Source: Flavobacteriaceae bacterium
GTDB taxonomy: Bacteria; Bacteroidota; Bacteroidia; Flavobacteriales; Weeksellaceae
Length of the DNA: 39,051 nt
Assembly: GCA_012522185.1 (NCBI GenBank)
Contig: JAAYKY010000034.1
Coordinates: 1 to 39,051 of the forward strand
Direction: 5' to 3'
Shown: piece by piece, positions 33,210-39,051 of the stretch
How positions within the stretch are numbered: position 1 is the stretch's first letter
Layout of the letters: each line of letters starts with the position of its first letter
Made by a program: the position numbers and the translations under genes
The notes under the pieces: model-generated
What the model was told of the DNA's origin: nothing
What the model saw: only the letters and a program-made list of their open reading frames with translations
The model's database searches: none

Positions 33210-35591
33210 TTAATTTTCGTTCAGATTATTCAACAACTGTTCCAAACTCATATCATCCTGAATCAATACCTGACGGGCTTTACTACCTTCAAACGGCCCT
33301 ACAATTCCTGCGGCTTCTAATTGATCGATCAACCTTCCCGCACGGTTGTATCCGAGTTTCAATTTCCGTTGCAAAAGGGAAGCTGAACCTTGTTGAGCCA
33401 TGACAATTACACGCGCCGCATCTTCAAACAAAACATCACGTTCACTTAAATCCACATCCAAAGGATTTCCACCATCTTCCCCTACGTATTCAGGGAGAAG
33501 GAAAGCATCTGAAAAACCAGCTTGCGAACCGATGTATTCGGTGATATCATCAACTTCGGGTGTGTCCACAAATGCACATTGAAGTCTGACCAATTCATTT
33601 CCGGTGGTGAAAAGCATATCTCCTTTTCCGATTAATTGATCGGCACCCGCCGAATCCAAAATCGTTCTTGAATCAATTTTTGAAGTAACTCGGAAAGCGA
33701 CTCTCGCCGGGAAATTCGCCTTGATGATACCTGTAATCACGTTTACAGAAGGTCTTTGAGTGGCAATGATTAAATGTATTCCCACCGCTCTCGCTAATTG
33801 TGCCAAACGGGCAATCGGAGTTTCCACTTCTTTTCCGGCAGTCATAATCAAATCGGCAAACTCGTCCACAATCAATACGATATAGGGCAAATACCGATGC
33901 CCATGTTCAGGATTTAATTTTCTGTTTTTGAACTTTTCATTGTATTCTTTGAGGTTGCGAACGAAAGCGTTTTTTAGCAATTCATAGCGTTCGTCCATTT
34001 CAATACAAAGTGAATTCAACGTATGAATCACCTTGGTGTTATCGGTGATAATCGCGTCTTCACTGTCGGGAAGTTTAGCCAAATAATGACGCTCGATTTT
34101 GGAGTAAAGCGTTAATTCTACCTTTTTGGGATCGACCATCACGAACTTCAATTCGGTCGGATGTTTTTTATACAAAAGCGAAGCGATGATGGCATTCAAA
34201 CCGACGGATTTACCTTGTCCAGTGGCTCCGGCCATCAATAAATGCGGCATTTTGGCCAAATCGGCTACGAAAGTTTCGTTTTCAATGGTCTTTCCAAAAG
34301 CAATCGGCAAATCCATTTTGGCTTGTTGGAATTTGCTCGAAGAAATTACCGAGCGCATAGAAACAATTGTAGGATTGCTGTTCGGTACTTCAATTCCGAT
34401 CGTTCCCTTTCCGGGAATTGGTGCGATGATTCGGATCCCCAATGCAGCTAAACTCAGTGCGATGTCATCTTCCAGATTTTTAATCTTCGAAATTCGTACG
34501 CCCGCTTCTGGAACGATTTCATAAAGTGTAACCGTCGGGCCGATGGTCGCTTTGATTTGGGAAATCCCGATTCCGTAATTGGCAAGGGTTTCCACAATCC
34601 GGTTTTTATTTTGTTCTAATTCTTGTTGATTGACCGTCAGATTTTCGCCGGTTTCGTATTTGCGTAGCAGATCAAGCGTCGGGAATTTGTATTTCGGAAG
34701 GTCGAGTCTGTGGTCGTATTCGCCATGTTTTTCAACCAAATCCGAAGCGATTTTATCGACGGTATCTTCTTCGTGCGCTTTTTCTATAGTAAGCGCCACA
34801 TCATTTTCATCTTTTGGCGGAATGATTTCGGGAACCGGCTCCGGCTTAAATTCCCTTGTTTGTTTGGGTTCTGAATCTGTTTTGACTGAGGGTTTAAAAT
34901 CCTCTTCATTCAGTTCTTCAATTCTTTTTTCCTGTACCGATTTTACGATTTCTGGTTCGTGGACGTCAAGGAATGGATCATCTTCACGAATTTCAAATTC
35001 GTCGTCTTCCACCACATCCTTGTCGAGGTCTTTTGATTTTCGTTCCAATGTGGACGAAATTTTATCGGGAGTAATCCGCCAATTGACAACCAAATATAAA
35101 ATCAGGCTGACAAAAATGGCGATTCCGGTTCCGATTTTTCCAATGAGCATATTCAGGTAATCATTTACCTCAAAACCCATTACACCATAAAGAATTCCTA
35201 TTTTAGAAATAAATCCAAGCAATACAGGAAACCAGATCAGAAAGAACAGACAGTTATAAAACAGCTTAAAAGGTTTAATTTTTTTGAATTTGAAAAGAAT
35301 TTTAGTTCCCAAAAGGATTAAAAATACGGGAAGAAAAAACGCGGTTATCCCAATCCCGTGATAGATGAATAATTCACCAAGATAAGCCCCGATTTTCCCC
35401 ATTATATTTTCAGCCACAATTTCACGGTTCCAAAAGTCAGAAAGCTGGCTCTGGTCGCCCTGGTAATTGAATATATAGGAAATAAAGGAAATCAATAAAA
35501 ATAACCCTACAGCGAGAAACAGTACGCCGAAAATGGTTTTGAAAACCTTTTTTCGTGATGATTTTTTAGAAACAAGTGTTGGTTCGTCCAT
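33210..35591 (-). CDS. ftsK: FtsK/SpoIIIE DNA translocase
   Basis: A 793-residue septal DNA pump. Four hydrophobic segments lie in 18-180 (FGVLFLAVGLFLLISFISYI first). An acidic/Pro linker (185-290) follows. The motor domain starts near 300: Walker A GATGQGKSVG (455-464), Walker B YIVLIVDEFADLIM, and LARAVGIHLIIATQRPSVNVITG. The last 70 residues are the gamma winged helix (ASLLQRKLKLGYNRAGRLIDQLEAAGIVG), which reads the polar KOPS sequences. It moves chromosome termini through the septum and activates XerCD. It is the first gene of the ftsK-lolA-lptF/G-ribB unit. Confidence 0.96.
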   Translation of the reverse strand: MDEPTLVSKKSSRKKVFKTIFGVLFLAVGLFLLISFISYIFNYQGDQSQLSDFWNREIVAENIMGKIGAYLGELFIYHGIGITAFFLPVFLILLGTKILFKFKKIKPFKLFYNCLFFLIWFPVLLGFISKIGILYGVMGFEVNDYLNMLIGKIGTGIAIFVSLILYLVVNWRITPDKISSTLERKSKDLDKDVVEDDEFEIREDDPFLDVHEPEIVKSVQEKRIEELNEEDFKPSVKTDSEPKQTREFKPEPVPEIIPPKDENDVALTIEKAHEEDTVDKIASDLVEKHGEYDHRLDLPKYKFPTLDLLRKYETGENLTVNQQELEQNKNRIVETLANYGIGISQIKATIGPTVTLYEIVPEAGVRISKIKNLEDDIALSLAALGIRIIAPIPGKGTIGIEVPNSNPTIVSMRSVISSSKFQQAKMDLPIAFGKTIENETFVADLAKMPHLLMAGATGQGKSVGLNAIIASLLYKKHPTELKFVMVDPKKVELTLYSKIERHYLAKLPDSEDAIITDNTKVIHTLNSLCIEMDERYELLKNAFVRNLKEYNEKFKNRKLNPEHGHRYLPYIVLIVDEFADLIMTAGKEVETPIARLAQLARAVGIHLIIATQRPSVNVITGIIKANFPARVAFRVTSKIDSRTILDSAGADQLIGKGDMLFTTGNELVRLQCAFVDTPEVDDITEYIGSQAGFSDAFLLPEYVGEDGGNPLDVDLSERDVLFEDAARVIVMAQQGSASLLQRKLKLGYNRAGRLIDQLEAAGIVGPFEGSKARQVLIQDDMSLEQLLNNLNEN

Positions 35592-35625: not shown

Positions 35626-35672
35626 TGAAAAATCATTTAGAATGTTTGCTTGAAGTTTTGAGCAGATTTTTG

Positions 35673-35918
35673 TTATTTATTTGGAGGGCTTTCGTGAAAT
35701 TGACTTCCCGTCTCATCTGTATAGTGTTCCGGTAACAATTCCAGCAAAGGAACCTCTAGTGCTTCTGCGCATTTCTCTAATACAGAAAACCGGATGTCTA
35801 TTTTTCCATGTTCCATATTGTGGTAAGTGACATAACTTACCCCTATATTGTGTGCCATGGCTTCTTGCGAATAGCCTTTTTCTTCCCGGATCTTTTTGAG
35901 CTTGTCTGCTATTTTCAT
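35673..35918 (-). CDS. Small XRE-family HTH regulator
   Basis: An 81-residue protein. Residues 1-62 are a Cro/CI-type HTH (KIREEKGYSQEAMAHNIGVS, YVTYHNMEHGKIDIRFSVLE, KCAEALEVPLLELLP), followed by a short disordered tail. No metabolite or protease domain. It is transcribed away from the lipoprotein gene at 36080, with 161 bases between, where an inverted repeat overlaps a promoter-like box. It could repress that unit, or be an orphan regulator, a common gene type in Bacteroidota. Confidence 0.85.
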   Translation of the reverse strand: MKIADKLKKIREEKGYSQEAMAHNIGVSYVTYHNMEHGKIDIRFSVLEKCAEALEVPLLELLPEHYTDETGSQFHESPPNK

Positions 35919-36003
35919 TAAGTATAGAGTATAGGTTAATCGTAAAATTAAAAAATAAAAAAGAGAATACTACAAAATTCTTTATATAAAAATTTGTATA
36001 AGG

Positions 36004-36045
36004 TTTTCCAAAGAGCTTACTGGATTGTTTCTTAAGTTTGGAAAA
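36004..36045 (+). promoter_or_regulatory. Inverted repeat overlapping a -7 box (candidate operator/promoter)
   Basis: TTTTCCAAA (36004-36012) and TTTGGAAAA (36037-36045) are perfect inverted copies, 24 bases apart. The right arm overlaps TAAGTTTG (36033-36040), a full TAnnTTTG match, 40 bases before the ATG at 36080. A dimeric repressor such as the XRE protein next door could bind here; that is inference. Confidence 0.4.
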
Positions 36046-36079
36046 ACGTTTAAAAAGACATTAAAGAAAAAAAAGAACA

Positions 36080-37042
36080 ATGATTATGAATTGGCAAAAA
36101 ATCATTTTAAATGCAGTAGTGGGAAGTTCATTGATTTTGATGTTTTGTTGTTCGGGTAGCAAGCAGGTTGTTTTGCAGGAAGAAACCAAAGAGGTAAATT
36201 ATATTCCGTATTATCTGAAAGTTTATGAGGCGGATAGTTTGTATTTGACAGGAAATCATGGGCGTTCTTTTGAGATTTTGGATAGTTTGTTTAAGGATTA
36301 CGAACCGTTAAATCAGTTGGGGATTTATGAAATGCAGACTTATGTGAAAACTGCATTTCTTACTGGTCATTATGATGTCATAAAACCGACTTTCAAAACT
36401 TTAATTGATACGTGGGGATATGATCCTTCCTATATTGAATATGACTCTATAATGTTTAATGCTTGGCATGAAAAAGGGTTGAGAGATGACGAAATAGTTG
36501 TGTGGCAAGAAAATTATAAAGAAAAAATTAACTGGACATTACGAGACACATTGATTGCAATGCACAAAGCCGATCAATTATACAGAGGAAAAGACAGAGA
36601 CAAAGAAATAAAGCGTGAAGACTCGGTTGACTTGGTTCATATTGATTTACTCAAATATATTTTTAAAAAGTATGGGTATCCGAGTTTTAAGTTAGTAGGT
36701 AGTCCAACTTATAAAGAAAAAATCGATTTGGGAGGGATTTTTAATCATATTTCTGACAATATAGATGAAAATGACTATGAATATTTTCGAAATGAATTAT
36801 TAAAATTTCTTAAACAAGGAATACCAGTTCAACATCAAATAACTATGATGGTCGACAAAAGAGAATATGACAGACAACGCAAAACTGTTTACGGAATTTT
36901 CGGAATACATGAGAGTTTTGGCGATAGAGTAGTGAAATTTGATACAATCGAAATTAATAAAAACAGAAAGTTAATTGGACTGTCAAGTATTCAATATGAA
37001 CAATTTAAAGAGAATATATTTAATTCAATGTTTAACCAATAA
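36080..37042 (+). CDS. DUF6624-like lipoprotein
   Basis: A 320-residue predicted lipoprotein. The signal peptide ends in LMFCC (Cys23 or Cys24 as lipid site). Residues 30-160 are helical, TPR-like (FEILDSLFKDYEPLN, TFKTLIDTWGYDPS). Residues 185-320 match what I remember of DUF6624: HIDLLKYIFKKYGYPSFKLVG, IFNHISDN, MVDKREYDRQRKTVYGIFG, and the end INKNRKLIGL. Function unknown. It ends 11 bases before the precursor peptide gene, so the two may be cotranscribed, and a role in self-protection is possible but unproved. AT-rich. The first of two close ATG codons is used; Met3 is equally likely. Confidence 0.7.
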   Translation: MIMNWQKIILNAVVGSSLILMFCCSGSKQVVLQEETKEVNYIPYYLKVYEADSLYLTGNHGRSFEILDSLFKDYEPLNQLGIYEMQTYVKTAFLTGHYDVIKPTFKTLIDTWGYDPSYIEYDSIMFNAWHEKGLRDDEIVVWQENYKEKINWTLRDTLIAMHKADQLYRGKDRDKEIKREDSVDLVHIDLLKYIFKKYGYPSFKLVGSPTYKEKIDLGGIFNHISDNIDENDYEYFRNELLKFLKQGIPVQHQITMMVDKREYDRQRKTVYGIFGIHESFGDRVVKFDTIEINKNRKLIGLSSIQYEQFKENIFNSMFNQ

Positions 37043-37053
37043 ATTTTACTATT

Positions 37054-37185
37054 ATGAAATTAAAATCATTAAAAAGTTTTCAAAATGAGAACCAAAATTC
37101 ATTGTTACTAGAAATGAATTTAAAAGAAATTAAAGGAGGTGTGGCACGTACAACATTTGCTGAAGGAACTTGTAGTCAAGATTAG
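37054..37185 (+). CDS. Precursor peptide with GG-type leader, probable class I lanthipeptide precursor (possibly 3' truncated)
   Basis: A 43-residue open frame: leader MKLKSLKSFQNENQNSLLLE then MNLKEIKGG, ending in the double-glycine motif (28-29), then a short core VARTTFAEGTCSQD (30-43). Leaders of the form L-x-x-I-K-G-G are typical of Bacteroidota RiPP precursors. The core has Thr32, Thr33, Thr39, Ser41 and one Cys40, so it could in principle make one lanthionine ring. Its last ten bases (37176-37185) are also the first codons of the LanC remnant in another frame, so the true core may have been longer and cut by a deletion. LanC and LanB remnants follow within 1.6 kb. Confidence 0.7.
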   Translation: MKLKSLKSFQNENQNSLLLEMNLKEIKGGVARTTFAEGTCSQD

Positions 37186-37670
37186 CGTGGTGTTCTGGTG
37201 ATTTAGGGATTGCCTATTCTTTGCTTCATGCCAATACGATTTTGAACAAGTCAGCTTTAAAGTCTAGGGCATTTGAAATTCTGAATAAATGTTATGAAAG
37301 AAATTTAGAAAACTCTGGAATTATATTTTTTAATGTGAATTCAAAACCATTTTACGATATGGCATTTTGCCATGGTATAGGAGGGGTTGTATTTTCATTG
37401 TATAGGGTGAGTAAATTAATAGGAGAAGATAATAGTCTAAGTGAGTGTTTTTCATATTGGAAAAAAGAATTGTTGAATGACCTAGAAATATTTTTAAGTA
37501 TCGACGAAGATATCTTTTACCCTCAAAATTCATTCAACAAACAAAATCCTAGCGAAAAACACACAATAGATAAGTGCAATTTTTTGAATGGAGTTGTAGG
37601 TGCTGGATTAGTTTTGCAATCAATTCAATATGATTGTGATGATTGGGCGCAATTTCTTGGATACCATTAA
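37176..37670 (+). pseudogene. LanC-like lanthipeptide cyclase, C-terminal fragment
   Basis: An open frame of 164 residues without a proper start, preceded by a stop at 37173-37175. It begins SRLAWCSGDLGIAYSLLHAN, which matches the (R)xxWCYGxxG motif of LanC, and later has DMAFCHGIGGVVFSLYRVS. So all three zinc ligands (one Cys, then Cys-His) are present. NFLNGVVGAGLVLQSI and DWAQFL match the LanC end. A full cyclase has about 400 residues; the N-terminal 60%, with the catalytic His and Asp, is missing. The WCYG Tyr is Ser here. A TTG at 37221 could start a shorter protein lacking the first zinc Cys, but I do not believe it is functional. Confidence 0.75.
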
Positions 37671-37688
37671 TTTAAAAATTTTAATAAA

Positions 37689-38552
37689 ATGAAAATAGCA
37701 TTTGTAATAGTATTACTAAATTTTAGTTTTTTTGCCTATTGTCAGACTAAAATAGGCTACATATTAGATTCTGAGACAAACGAATCTATACCGTACACAA
37801 ATATAATTGGAGTAAACAATGAATTAAAGTTGATTTCTGATAAAAATGGAAATTATTCTGCTGATAAAGTTATGAACCTTAAACCAAATGACAAAATAGT
37901 TTTCTATGCATCAGGTTATGATTCAAAAGAGCTTTTGGTATCTGATATTGTAAAAAGTGAATATAAGGTATTCTTAAATCAAAAATCAATCTTATTGGAA
38001 GAAGCGGTAATTAGTTCTAATGTTCAAAAAGAAATTTTGGGTAATAAAGAGTTGGGTACTATCTCAAGTAAATTTTTCTCAGAGTTTGATCCCAGAGATT
38101 TTGACGAATTAGGAAAAGAACGAGGTATAGTTTTAGCTATAACTGAAAAAACTAAATTTAATAATCTGAAATTTTATGTTGCTCAAAATGAATTTAAATA
38201 TGTAAAGCTCAAATTAAATTTTTATAGTGTTTCAGAAGAGAAAACATTTGAGTTGTTAAATCAGCAAGACATTTTTATAGAAGTGAGGGATGAATACAAA
38301 GGTTGGGTTGATGTAAACTTACAAGAATATGATTTAGTTTTCAGAAAACAAGAAGGATCTACTAAAATAGTAGCATCTTTACAATGGCTTGAAAGTATTA
38401 AAAGTAATGATGAAAGTGAAAAATTTGGAATAAATGCAAAAAGAGCGAAAAAAAGGAATAGAGCGTATAACTTTAACTCACAGTATGGATTAGGATGGCG
38501 ATTTTCTAAATTTGATTTGGCTTTTTATTTCGACGTAACAACATTCAAATAA
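37689..38552 (+). CDS. Secreted carboxypeptidase-regulatory-like protein of the lanthipeptide locus
   Basis: A 287-residue protein with a signal peptide (MKIAFVIVLLNFSFFAYC). Residues 22-105 form a CarboxypepD_reg-like (CNA-B-type) sandwich: KIGYILDSETNESIPYTNII, then SDKNGNYSADKV, then DKIVFYASGYDSKEL and ILLEEAVIS, as at the N terminus of SusC-like proteins, but no barrel or plug follows. Residues 140-287 are beta-rich (NNLKFYVAQNEFKYVKLKLN, GWVDVNLQEYDLVF, IVASLQWLES). It starts 18 bases after the LanC fragment and precedes the LanB fragment by 40. A role in export or protection is possible. Very AT-rich. Confidence 0.65.
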   Translation: MKIAFVIVLLNFSFFAYCQTKIGYILDSETNESIPYTNIIGVNNELKLISDKNGNYSADKVMNLKPNDKIVFYASGYDSKELLVSDIVKSEYKVFLNQKSILLEEAVISSNVQKEILGNKELGTISSKFFSEFDPRDFDELGKERGIVLAITEKTKFNNLKFYVAQNEFKYVKLKLNFYSVSEEKTFELLNQQDIFIEVRDEYKGWVDVNLQEYDLVFRKQEGSTKIVASLQWLESIKSNDESEKFGINAKRAKKRNRAYNFNSQYGLGWRFSKFDLAFYFDVTTFK

Positions 38553-38592
38553 ATTACTTCCATAACAGCCTATAAATCTTATTAAAAAGATT

Positions 38593-38748
38593 ATGAGAAA
38601 GAATATCCCAATTGATGTTTTTGATGAATATGTTTTACGAACGCCAGTCTTGTCATTAACAGAAATAATGAATGTTGATGAAAATCAATTAATAGACTTT
38701 TTAAAAAATAATTCCCTTTTAGACGCAATATTTTTAGCATCTCCATAA
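38593..38748 (+). pseudogene. LanB-like lantibiotic dehydratase, N-terminal fragment cut by an IS
   Basis: A 51-residue frame from ATG 38593. It contains FDEYVLRTPVLSLTEIM (10-26), like the YxLRTPLLP start of lantibiotic dehydratases, and ends LLDAIFLASP (42-51), like the conserved ALYLASP a few dozen residues into these proteins. LanB proteins have 700-1000 residues. The frame ends at 38746-38748, just before sequence that leads into an IS3-family transposase, so the stop probably comes from the IS end. The rest of the gene may lie beyond the IS, outside the window. Confidence 0.65.
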
Positions 38749-39051
38749 AGTACTCCCCATTTTCTGTACCACAATTAGGCTGATTTAAGTTGAATTATTC
38801 TTTCAAATTTATACAAATCTTTTGGTTTTTTATTTCTTATTCCCTGATGTTTTCTTTGGTTATATTCCTCAATAAAATTCTTGATTCCAAGATACAAGTC
38901 CAATCCGGTTTCGGCTGGGTTCAAATAAATGTAATCATACTTGATTGACCGGAAGAATCTTTCCACATAAATGTTGTCTGTTGCTCTGCCCTTACCGTCC
39001 ATGCTTATCCTGATTTCATAACCTTTTAAACAATTGACCCAGTTTTTGGAA
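38749..39051 (-). mobile_element. IS3-family insertion sequence, partial (3' end inside window)
   Basis: The transposase is minus strand, and the frame is open from the right edge (39051) to the stop at 38775-38777. The 91 residues in view include WVNCLKGYEIRISMDGKGRA then TDNIYVERFFRSIKYDYIYL, the end of the IS3 DDE domain (the Glu of VERFFRSIK is the third catalytic acid), and IEEYNQRKHQGIRNKKPKDL near the C terminus. The 26 bases from 38749 to 38774 should hold the IS end, but I could not define the terminal repeat because the other end is outside the window. Confidence 0.75.
38775..39051 (-). CDS. IS3-family transposase OrfB, C-terminal part (cut by window edge)
   Basis: About 91 residues of the integrase-core transposase, without the first two catalytic Asp, which lie outside the window. 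The motif SMDGKGRATDN followed by YVERFFRSIKYDY is standard for OrfB of IS3 elements. It cuts and joins DNA during transposition. An internal ATG at 39002 is not the true start because similarity continues upstream to the edge. Confidence 0.8.
   Translation of the reverse strand, partial: SKNWVNCLKGYEIRISMDGKGRATDNIYVERFFRSIKYDYIYLNPAETGLDLYLGIKNFIEEYNQRKHQGIRNKKPKDLYKFERIIQLKSA

Follow-up and report, generated by a model that had tools for sequence, protein, structure and literature searches.

Do the gene pieces at the right end of a flavobacterial contig belong to one peptide pathway, and is that pathway still at work? The contig in question (JAAYKY010000034.1 of assembly GCA_012522185.1, Flavobacteriaceae bacterium), called the window hereafter, is the whole stretch of 39,051 nucleotides that was analysed. 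An original prediction, made from the sequence alone, had read five pieces there as a decayed cluster for a class I lanthipeptide, that is, a ring-containing peptide: a lipoprotein, a precursor with a double-glycine (GG) leader, the zinc-binding end of a LanC cyclase, a CarboxypepD_reg-like protein and the start of a LanB dehydratase. All five frames were found at the predicted positions by an open reading frame (ORF) check (Table 1). Overall, we put the probability at about 0.85 that the locus is the remnant of a cluster with the layout common in Bacteroidota, broken by deletions and an IS3-family insertion sequence (IS) and now dead. Its kind, the class I lanthipeptide cluster, is an already-known one. 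The LanC and LanB pieces stood up as its members, the lipoprotein and the GG peptide did not, and the CarboxypepD_reg gene is left undecided.

The cyclase fragment aligned with positions 220-341 of the 350 in the Pfam LANC_like profile (E 7.2e-10; 38.4 bits, cut-off 23.2) and was the only such match in the genome. In an alignment of 11 LanCs that includes the window protein (alignment A1), begins at the SRLAW motif and gives a profile that also matched NisC (E 1.3e-13), C6, C65 and H66 are invariant, and the fragment keeps all invariant residues. As in NisC, the cysteine and the Cys-His pair presumably bind zinc. In the numbering of the Flavobacterium sp. KMS LanC, which has 398 residues and its WCYG motif at residue 245, the fragment lacks residues 1 to about 240; of a full cyclase domain, the window holds the zinc-site end. 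Because a stop codon stands in the LanC frame at 37173-37175 and nothing LanC-like was seen upstream when the sequence was read by eye, a deletion junction probably lies there, within or directly behind the GG peptide frame. No relative was found when GTDB was first scanned with the LanC fragment by itself. A second scan, with alignment A1, yielded 393 LanC relatives, and the analyses below draw on the best 80 of them. This second scan relied on the single pattern WCYGDL[GS][IV], which would miss the window LanC itself (WCSGDLGI), so relatives changed in like manner went unseen.

The dehydratase piece was recognised by a profile of eight Bacteroidota LanBs from which the window was excluded (LanB profile A2). 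This profile, which replaced the Pfam model and matched NisB at E 1.3e-63, gave only one match genome-wide at E-values up to 1, at 38608-38745 (E 2.9e-7, positions 4-49 of 729), and found no further LanB in the assembly. In tblastn searches the 51 residues matched 20 of the 80 LanC loci at E 0.01 (best 46% identity, E 1.6e-8) and, at E 0.05, 5 of 20 loci from the family; in all five loci compared for position (L119, L121, L036, L037 and L051) the match fell at the start of LanB. The LanB frame, predicted to span 38593-38748, stops where the IS3-family element starts, and the contig ends inside that element. A class I cluster, decayed and holding only fragments of LanC and LanB, is thus what the original prediction had proposed, and both enzyme pieces were confirmed.

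The far side of the element appears to lie on another contig of the assembly, C49, which was found by searching the genome with the Flavobacterium sp. KMS exporter (65% match at the start of C49). C49 starts with the opposite end of the element (transposase gene start on the minus strand, read by eye), and both IS ends, on C49 and on the window contig (C14), carry the inverted repeat TACTCCCCA. This common repeat and the transposase place the element in the IS3 family; its transpos_IS3 match covers the C-terminal 91 residues and stays below the whole-protein cut-off of the model. A frame of 25 residues that ends in a stop codon, first spotted by eye, lies behind the IS end of C49 and scored 21.0 bits (E 1.4e-5) against a profile of 71 C-termini of LanB elimination domains. 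None of 1000 shuffles reached that score (best 9.8), and the segment ranked first among 1966 six-frame segments from the window and 12 kb of C49 (next 7.3). What is left of the glutamylation and elimination domains of a LanB is therefore 51 N-terminal residues in the window and about 25 C-terminal residues on C49.

The order on C49 continues with a single open frame for a C39 exporter joined to HlyD and then a gene, presumably dnaX, that matches the gene after ftsK in congeners. The exporter, of a widespread type, and HlyD share 65% and 44% identity, respectively, with their counterparts in the Flavobacterium sp. KMS cluster. The genome holds 29 exporter matches, and only the C49 frame extends to the first 140 residues, within which we take the C39 part to lie. 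All nine relatives aligned over exporter and HlyD have a stop between or within them, and the two are separate genes in genome G237; therefore, the fusion into a single frame looks secondary, with the proviso that relatives matched on the exporter alone sit in frames of up to 1467 codons and fused forms may exist elsewhere.

The two contigs also appear to share a chromosomal site. Homology to congeners leaves the window at 35646, beyond a gene that we take to be ftsK, and returns at C49:3720, and these end points are about 60 bp apart in congener G296 and about 245 bp apart in G292. Because dnaX follows ftsK without the cluster in three congeners (G292, with one short frame between, G293 and G296), we regard the lanthipeptide locus as an island inserted between these two genes, and C14 and C49 appear to be neighbours in the genome. 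Another gene stands beside ftsK in the other two congeners (G294 and G295). LanC had no match in any of the five, two of which are only 76% and 81% complete, and a comparison of 120 bases at one end of the island with 100 at the other gave no direct repeat of at least 9 bp. The predicted AT-richness was borne out on the window side, with 29.8% G+C at 35647-38745 against 38.7% at 1-35600.

From these data we provide a putative course of events. A cluster of a GG-leader precursor, LanC, LanB, a C39 exporter (LanT) and HlyD would once have stood in the ftsK-dnaX island. One deletion would have taken the front of lanC plus everything preceding it, and the true lanA may have been lost with it. The IS3 element would now occupy the place of most of lanB and may have been involved in the loss of that segment. 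The lipoprotein and the GG peptide, probably a graspetide-type pair, would have been moved beside lanC by deletion or would have been in the island already. With only the two ends of the dehydratase and the last two fifths of the cyclase left, the locus would not be expected to yield a lanthipeptide; the exporter could still be working.

Table 1. Features of the island and its flank in the window and on contig C49
Feature	Position	Strand	Remarks
ftsK (presumed name)	33210..35591	-	left chromosomal flank of the island; ORF; congener homology runs on to 35646 and ends there
Island, window part	35647..39051	.	between ftsK and dnaX; remainder apparently contig C49, bases 1 to ~3719
Small helix-turn-helix regulator	35673..35918	-	HTH_3 E 3.5e-14; within the island, outside congener homology
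Lipoprotein	36080..37042	+	intact frame; family accompanies graspetide ATP-grasp genes
Double-glycine leader peptide frame	37054..37185	+	3' end at the putative deletion junction; LanA identity not supported
Likely internal deletion junction	37173..37176	.	stop codon in LanC frame, LanC homology directly after
LanC, C-terminal 164 residues	37176..37670	+	presumed zinc ligands (Cys, Cys-His) kept; ~240 N-terminal residues gone
CarboxypepD_reg-like protein	37689..38552	+	intact frame; signal-like N-terminus, second beta domain
LanB dehydratase, first 51 codons	38593..38745	+	LanB profile A2 E 2.9e-7; cut off by the IS element
IS3-family element, right end	38746..39051	-	rve_3 E 1.4e-10; transpos_IS3 E 9.6e-16; contig ends within
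IS3 transposase end	38775-39050	-	C-terminal part
C39 exporter and HlyD, one open frame of 1162 codons	L286:214-3702 (contig C49)		in the apparent C49 part of the island

Three further places in the genome, C34:9127-9194, C16:601-668 and C40:98222-98289 (L287-L289), carry the terminal 68 bp of the IS3 element without the rest, at 91-94% identity. Two of these copies share 108 bp and the third shares 86-89 bp with those; the three resemble a small mobile derivative of the element.

Intact relatives of the locus, which had been predicted to be of interest, do exist, in Flavobacterium sp. KMS, Aquimarina, G237 and Chryseobacterium limigenitum. Among the best 80 of the 393 LanCs, the closest were those of Aquimarina and Flavobacterium sp. 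KMS (38-41% identity), in clusters that look complete. Within the family, the G237 cluster has LanA, LanC, LanB, an elimination domain, LanT and HlyD on one strand, which is the order of the window and C49 pieces, although similarity between its LanC and the window fragment is weak (29% over 72 residues, E 9e-5). Homologs of LanC, LanB, elimination domain, C39 exporter and HlyD are common to Flavobacterium sp. KMS (L120), G237 (L302) and the present locus. The clusters of the first two look complete, whereas here LanC and LanB are fragments with an IS and a CarboxypepD_reg gene intervening, LanT and HlyD are joined in a single frame, and a LanA bearing the usual leader was not found. A second arrangement, with LanA, LanC and a CarboxypepD_reg gene clustered, was seen in C. 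limigenitum SUR2 (L198; L093) and G110 (L117). There the CarboxypepD_reg gene lies 16 bp behind LanC (18 bp here) and LanB is directly followed by the C39 exporter, as in our locus; unlike here, LanB and the exporter are on the opposite strand, and the CarboxypepD_reg protein of L093 matches ours over its first 110 residues only (26%).

The original prediction had called class I lanthipeptides few in Bacteroidota, a view that does not hold for the clusters. LanC had a match in 67 of 320 genomes of the family, our own included, and the consulted part of PMC7268733 places nearly a quarter of class I LanCs in Bacteroidota, with only the pinensins isolated. The consulted part of PMC9993889 describes class I LanA, LanB and LanC of two further Bacteroidota, Chryseobacterium sp. 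OV715 and Runella limosa, whose lanthipeptides were made in Escherichia coli with working enzymes; unlike those enzymes, LanB and LanC of our locus are mostly gone.

Several observations weigh against the proposed history. Pfam and NCBIfam gave no match to the 51-residue LanB piece. A genome-wide search with Pfam Lant_dehydr_N was also empty, though it was equally empty for the control genomes. Profile searches had been named as one way to refute the cluster; LANC_like matched, the Pfam LanB model did not, and the LanB profile of closer relatives did. No single read shows the C14-C49 junction, and neither stretch contains the central part of the IS. The assembly may lack small contigs, and the middle of lanB could therefore exist. 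The island part of C49 has 36.4% G+C, near the 38.6% of its flank. The exporter type occurs in 220 of the 320 family genomes at E 1e-100, including congeners G292 and G293 (not at the ftsK-dnaX site in the stretches read), and an ATP-grasp gene lay in the same stretch in 4 of 11 exporter loci opened; therefore, the exporter need not have served a lanthipeptide alone. Finally, a search for the predicted gene order in intact form was answered by G237 for LanA, LanC and LanB, but no CarboxypepD_reg gene stands between LanC and LanB there.

We remained undecided on whether the CarboxypepD_reg gene is linked to the lanthipeptide pathway. Its protein matched CarbopepD_reg_2 at E 6.9e-7 (29.7 bits, slightly below the cut-off of 32.2), and in a model with a predicted local distance difference test (pLDDT) of 55 the N domain resembled the SusC NTE domain 9hfj and transthyretin-like domains by Foldseek; higher-ranked hits to teneurins were discarded for poor alignment, and only the N-domain match was used. 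The gene had a match in 197 of the 320 family genomes. Apart from our own, 11 of the 12 best family hits were in loci with LanB and LanC, all of one cluster type and one genus, and such a gene directly follows LanC in the family genomes G078 and G110. However, LanB and LanC were absent from 12 further family loci (L075-L086), chosen because no LanC was listed at these places in their genomes. They were likewise absent near the eight best relatives at the level of the order, which outscore the best of the family, and near a lower ninth one (G559), in a sample of 395 genomes (one of these loci, L323, starts at a contig end and shows one side only). The gene was therefore dropped as a lanthipeptide marker.

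Twelve family loci (L036, L038-L046, L048 and L049) combine LanC, LanB and a CarboxypepD_reg gene with genes that we take to encode a luciferase-like oxidoreductase and a DUF6625-like protein; a simple scan found no convincing GG-leader precursor in them. Another broken cluster of LanA, LanC and a CarboxypepD_reg gene was seen in G049 (L094), with LanC in two frames and LanB only partly matched.

How, then, are the lipoprotein and the GG peptide to be explained? Neither reached the cut-off of a Pfam or NCBIfam family. The best surviving explanation, which we think probable, is that they are the remains of a graspetide system, or a solo pair from one, joined to the lanthipeptide relic by the deletion at about 37175. 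The lipoprotein family had a match in 112 of the 320 family genomes, our own included. Of 48 lipoprotein homologs, drawn from ranks 2 to 51 of the hits and leaving out L108 and L110, which were fetched for tandem copies, 33 had a graspetide-type ATP-grasp gene in the surrounding stretch, compared with 0 of 38 control stretches from the same contigs at a distance of 40 kb; the stretches mostly reached about 4 kb to each side, 3-5 kb for eight of them and less at contig ends. No marker at all was present in 14 of the 48 loci, which speaks against this explanation, and one control stretch had a distant exporter match. Neither LanB nor LanC was found around any of the 48 at E 1e-5, and tblastn at E 0.01 found no homolog of the lipoprotein in the 80 LanC loci. 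Because its family goes with graspetide genes and was not found in those loci, the lipoprotein is probably not part of the lanthipeptide pathway. In the consulted part of PMC8939145, cluster 23 lipoproteins, of unknown function, are among the commonest families associated with graspetide clusters; ours probably belongs to that family, judging by gene company. The Chryseobacterium graspetide clusters described there thus probably share the lipoprotein family with our locus and perhaps the leader type; unlike them, our genome gave no match to a graspetide-type ATP-grasp with one query, run without a control, which counts weakly against a graspetide origin.

A prediction of the lipoprotein fold from the single sequence was useless (pLDDT 32). 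In four genomes (L202, L205, L207 and L210), lipoprotein homologs stand beside a very similar gene for a cysteine-rich GG peptide, without an ATP-grasp gene in the stretch.

The peptide itself points, if weakly, the same way. According to the consulted part of PMC7268733, many Bacteroidetes class I precursors have the leader motif LxLxKx5L; the window peptide has the GG and lacks this motif. In 50 LanA-like frames beside LanC, from 31 of the 80 loci and picked by position, GG or GA, lysines and cysteines rather than by the motif, the motif occurred in relaxed form in 45 and in strict form in 29. Against a LanA-leader profile, biased in that its 48 leaders were picked by motif, the peptide could not be told from shuffles, 2587 of 5000 of which scored as well. 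Its score on a graspetide-leader profile was 7.3 bits, matched or exceeded by 28 of 5000 shuffles, a weak resemblance. We preferred this profile to a leader motif expression that had been relaxed from M to M or L after the window peptide was seen, which makes its count of 217 in 200000 shuffles post hoc. A GG peptide follows the lipoprotein gene by 15-16 bp in G189 and G188, both with ATP-grasp pieces, compared with 11 bp in the window. Given the ATP-grasp company, the absent LanA motif, the leader profile and this spacing, the two front genes are more likely of graspetide type than of lanthipeptide type, and the last residues of the peptide may be chimeric.

We now consider it unlikely that, as originally proposed, all five pieces served a single lanthipeptide pathway in which the GG peptide was the LanA. 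Their common strand and short gaps would fit it, as would the place of the peptide at the LanA position of the G237 cluster and the order LanA, LanC, CarboxypepD_reg gene with open frames in G078 and G110. These points are countered by the missing LanA motif and the failed LanA-leader profile, by the failure to find lipoprotein homologs in the 80 LanC loci or LanB or LanC around the 48 lipoprotein homologs, and by the best order-level CarboxypepD_reg relatives, which have neither LanB nor LanC nearby.

Less probable still is that the locus is alive, with the GG peptide or another one still secreted by way of the exporter-HlyD frame and the relic kept for that purpose. The exporter-HlyD frame is open over its whole length and uniquely keeps the first 140 residues, and the lipoprotein and peptide frames are open as well; however, the peptide ends at the putative deletion junction, and the exporter and HlyD lie in one frame where the nine relatives have a stop. 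A hybrid island, in which a graspetide-type precursor and lipoprotein shared the C39 exporter with LanB and LanC and the single-chain exporter-HlyD still exports the chimeric GG peptide, seems highly improbable.

Within the preferred reading of a broken class I cluster, the locus would represent a stage in cluster death at which the two synthesis enzymes have been fragmented and the exporter frame is still open. It marks the ftsK-dnaX gap as an insertion place in this genus, and the graspetide-type lipoprotein beside lanthipeptide genes offers a lead on the role of its protein family. It also points to intact relatives worth expressing.

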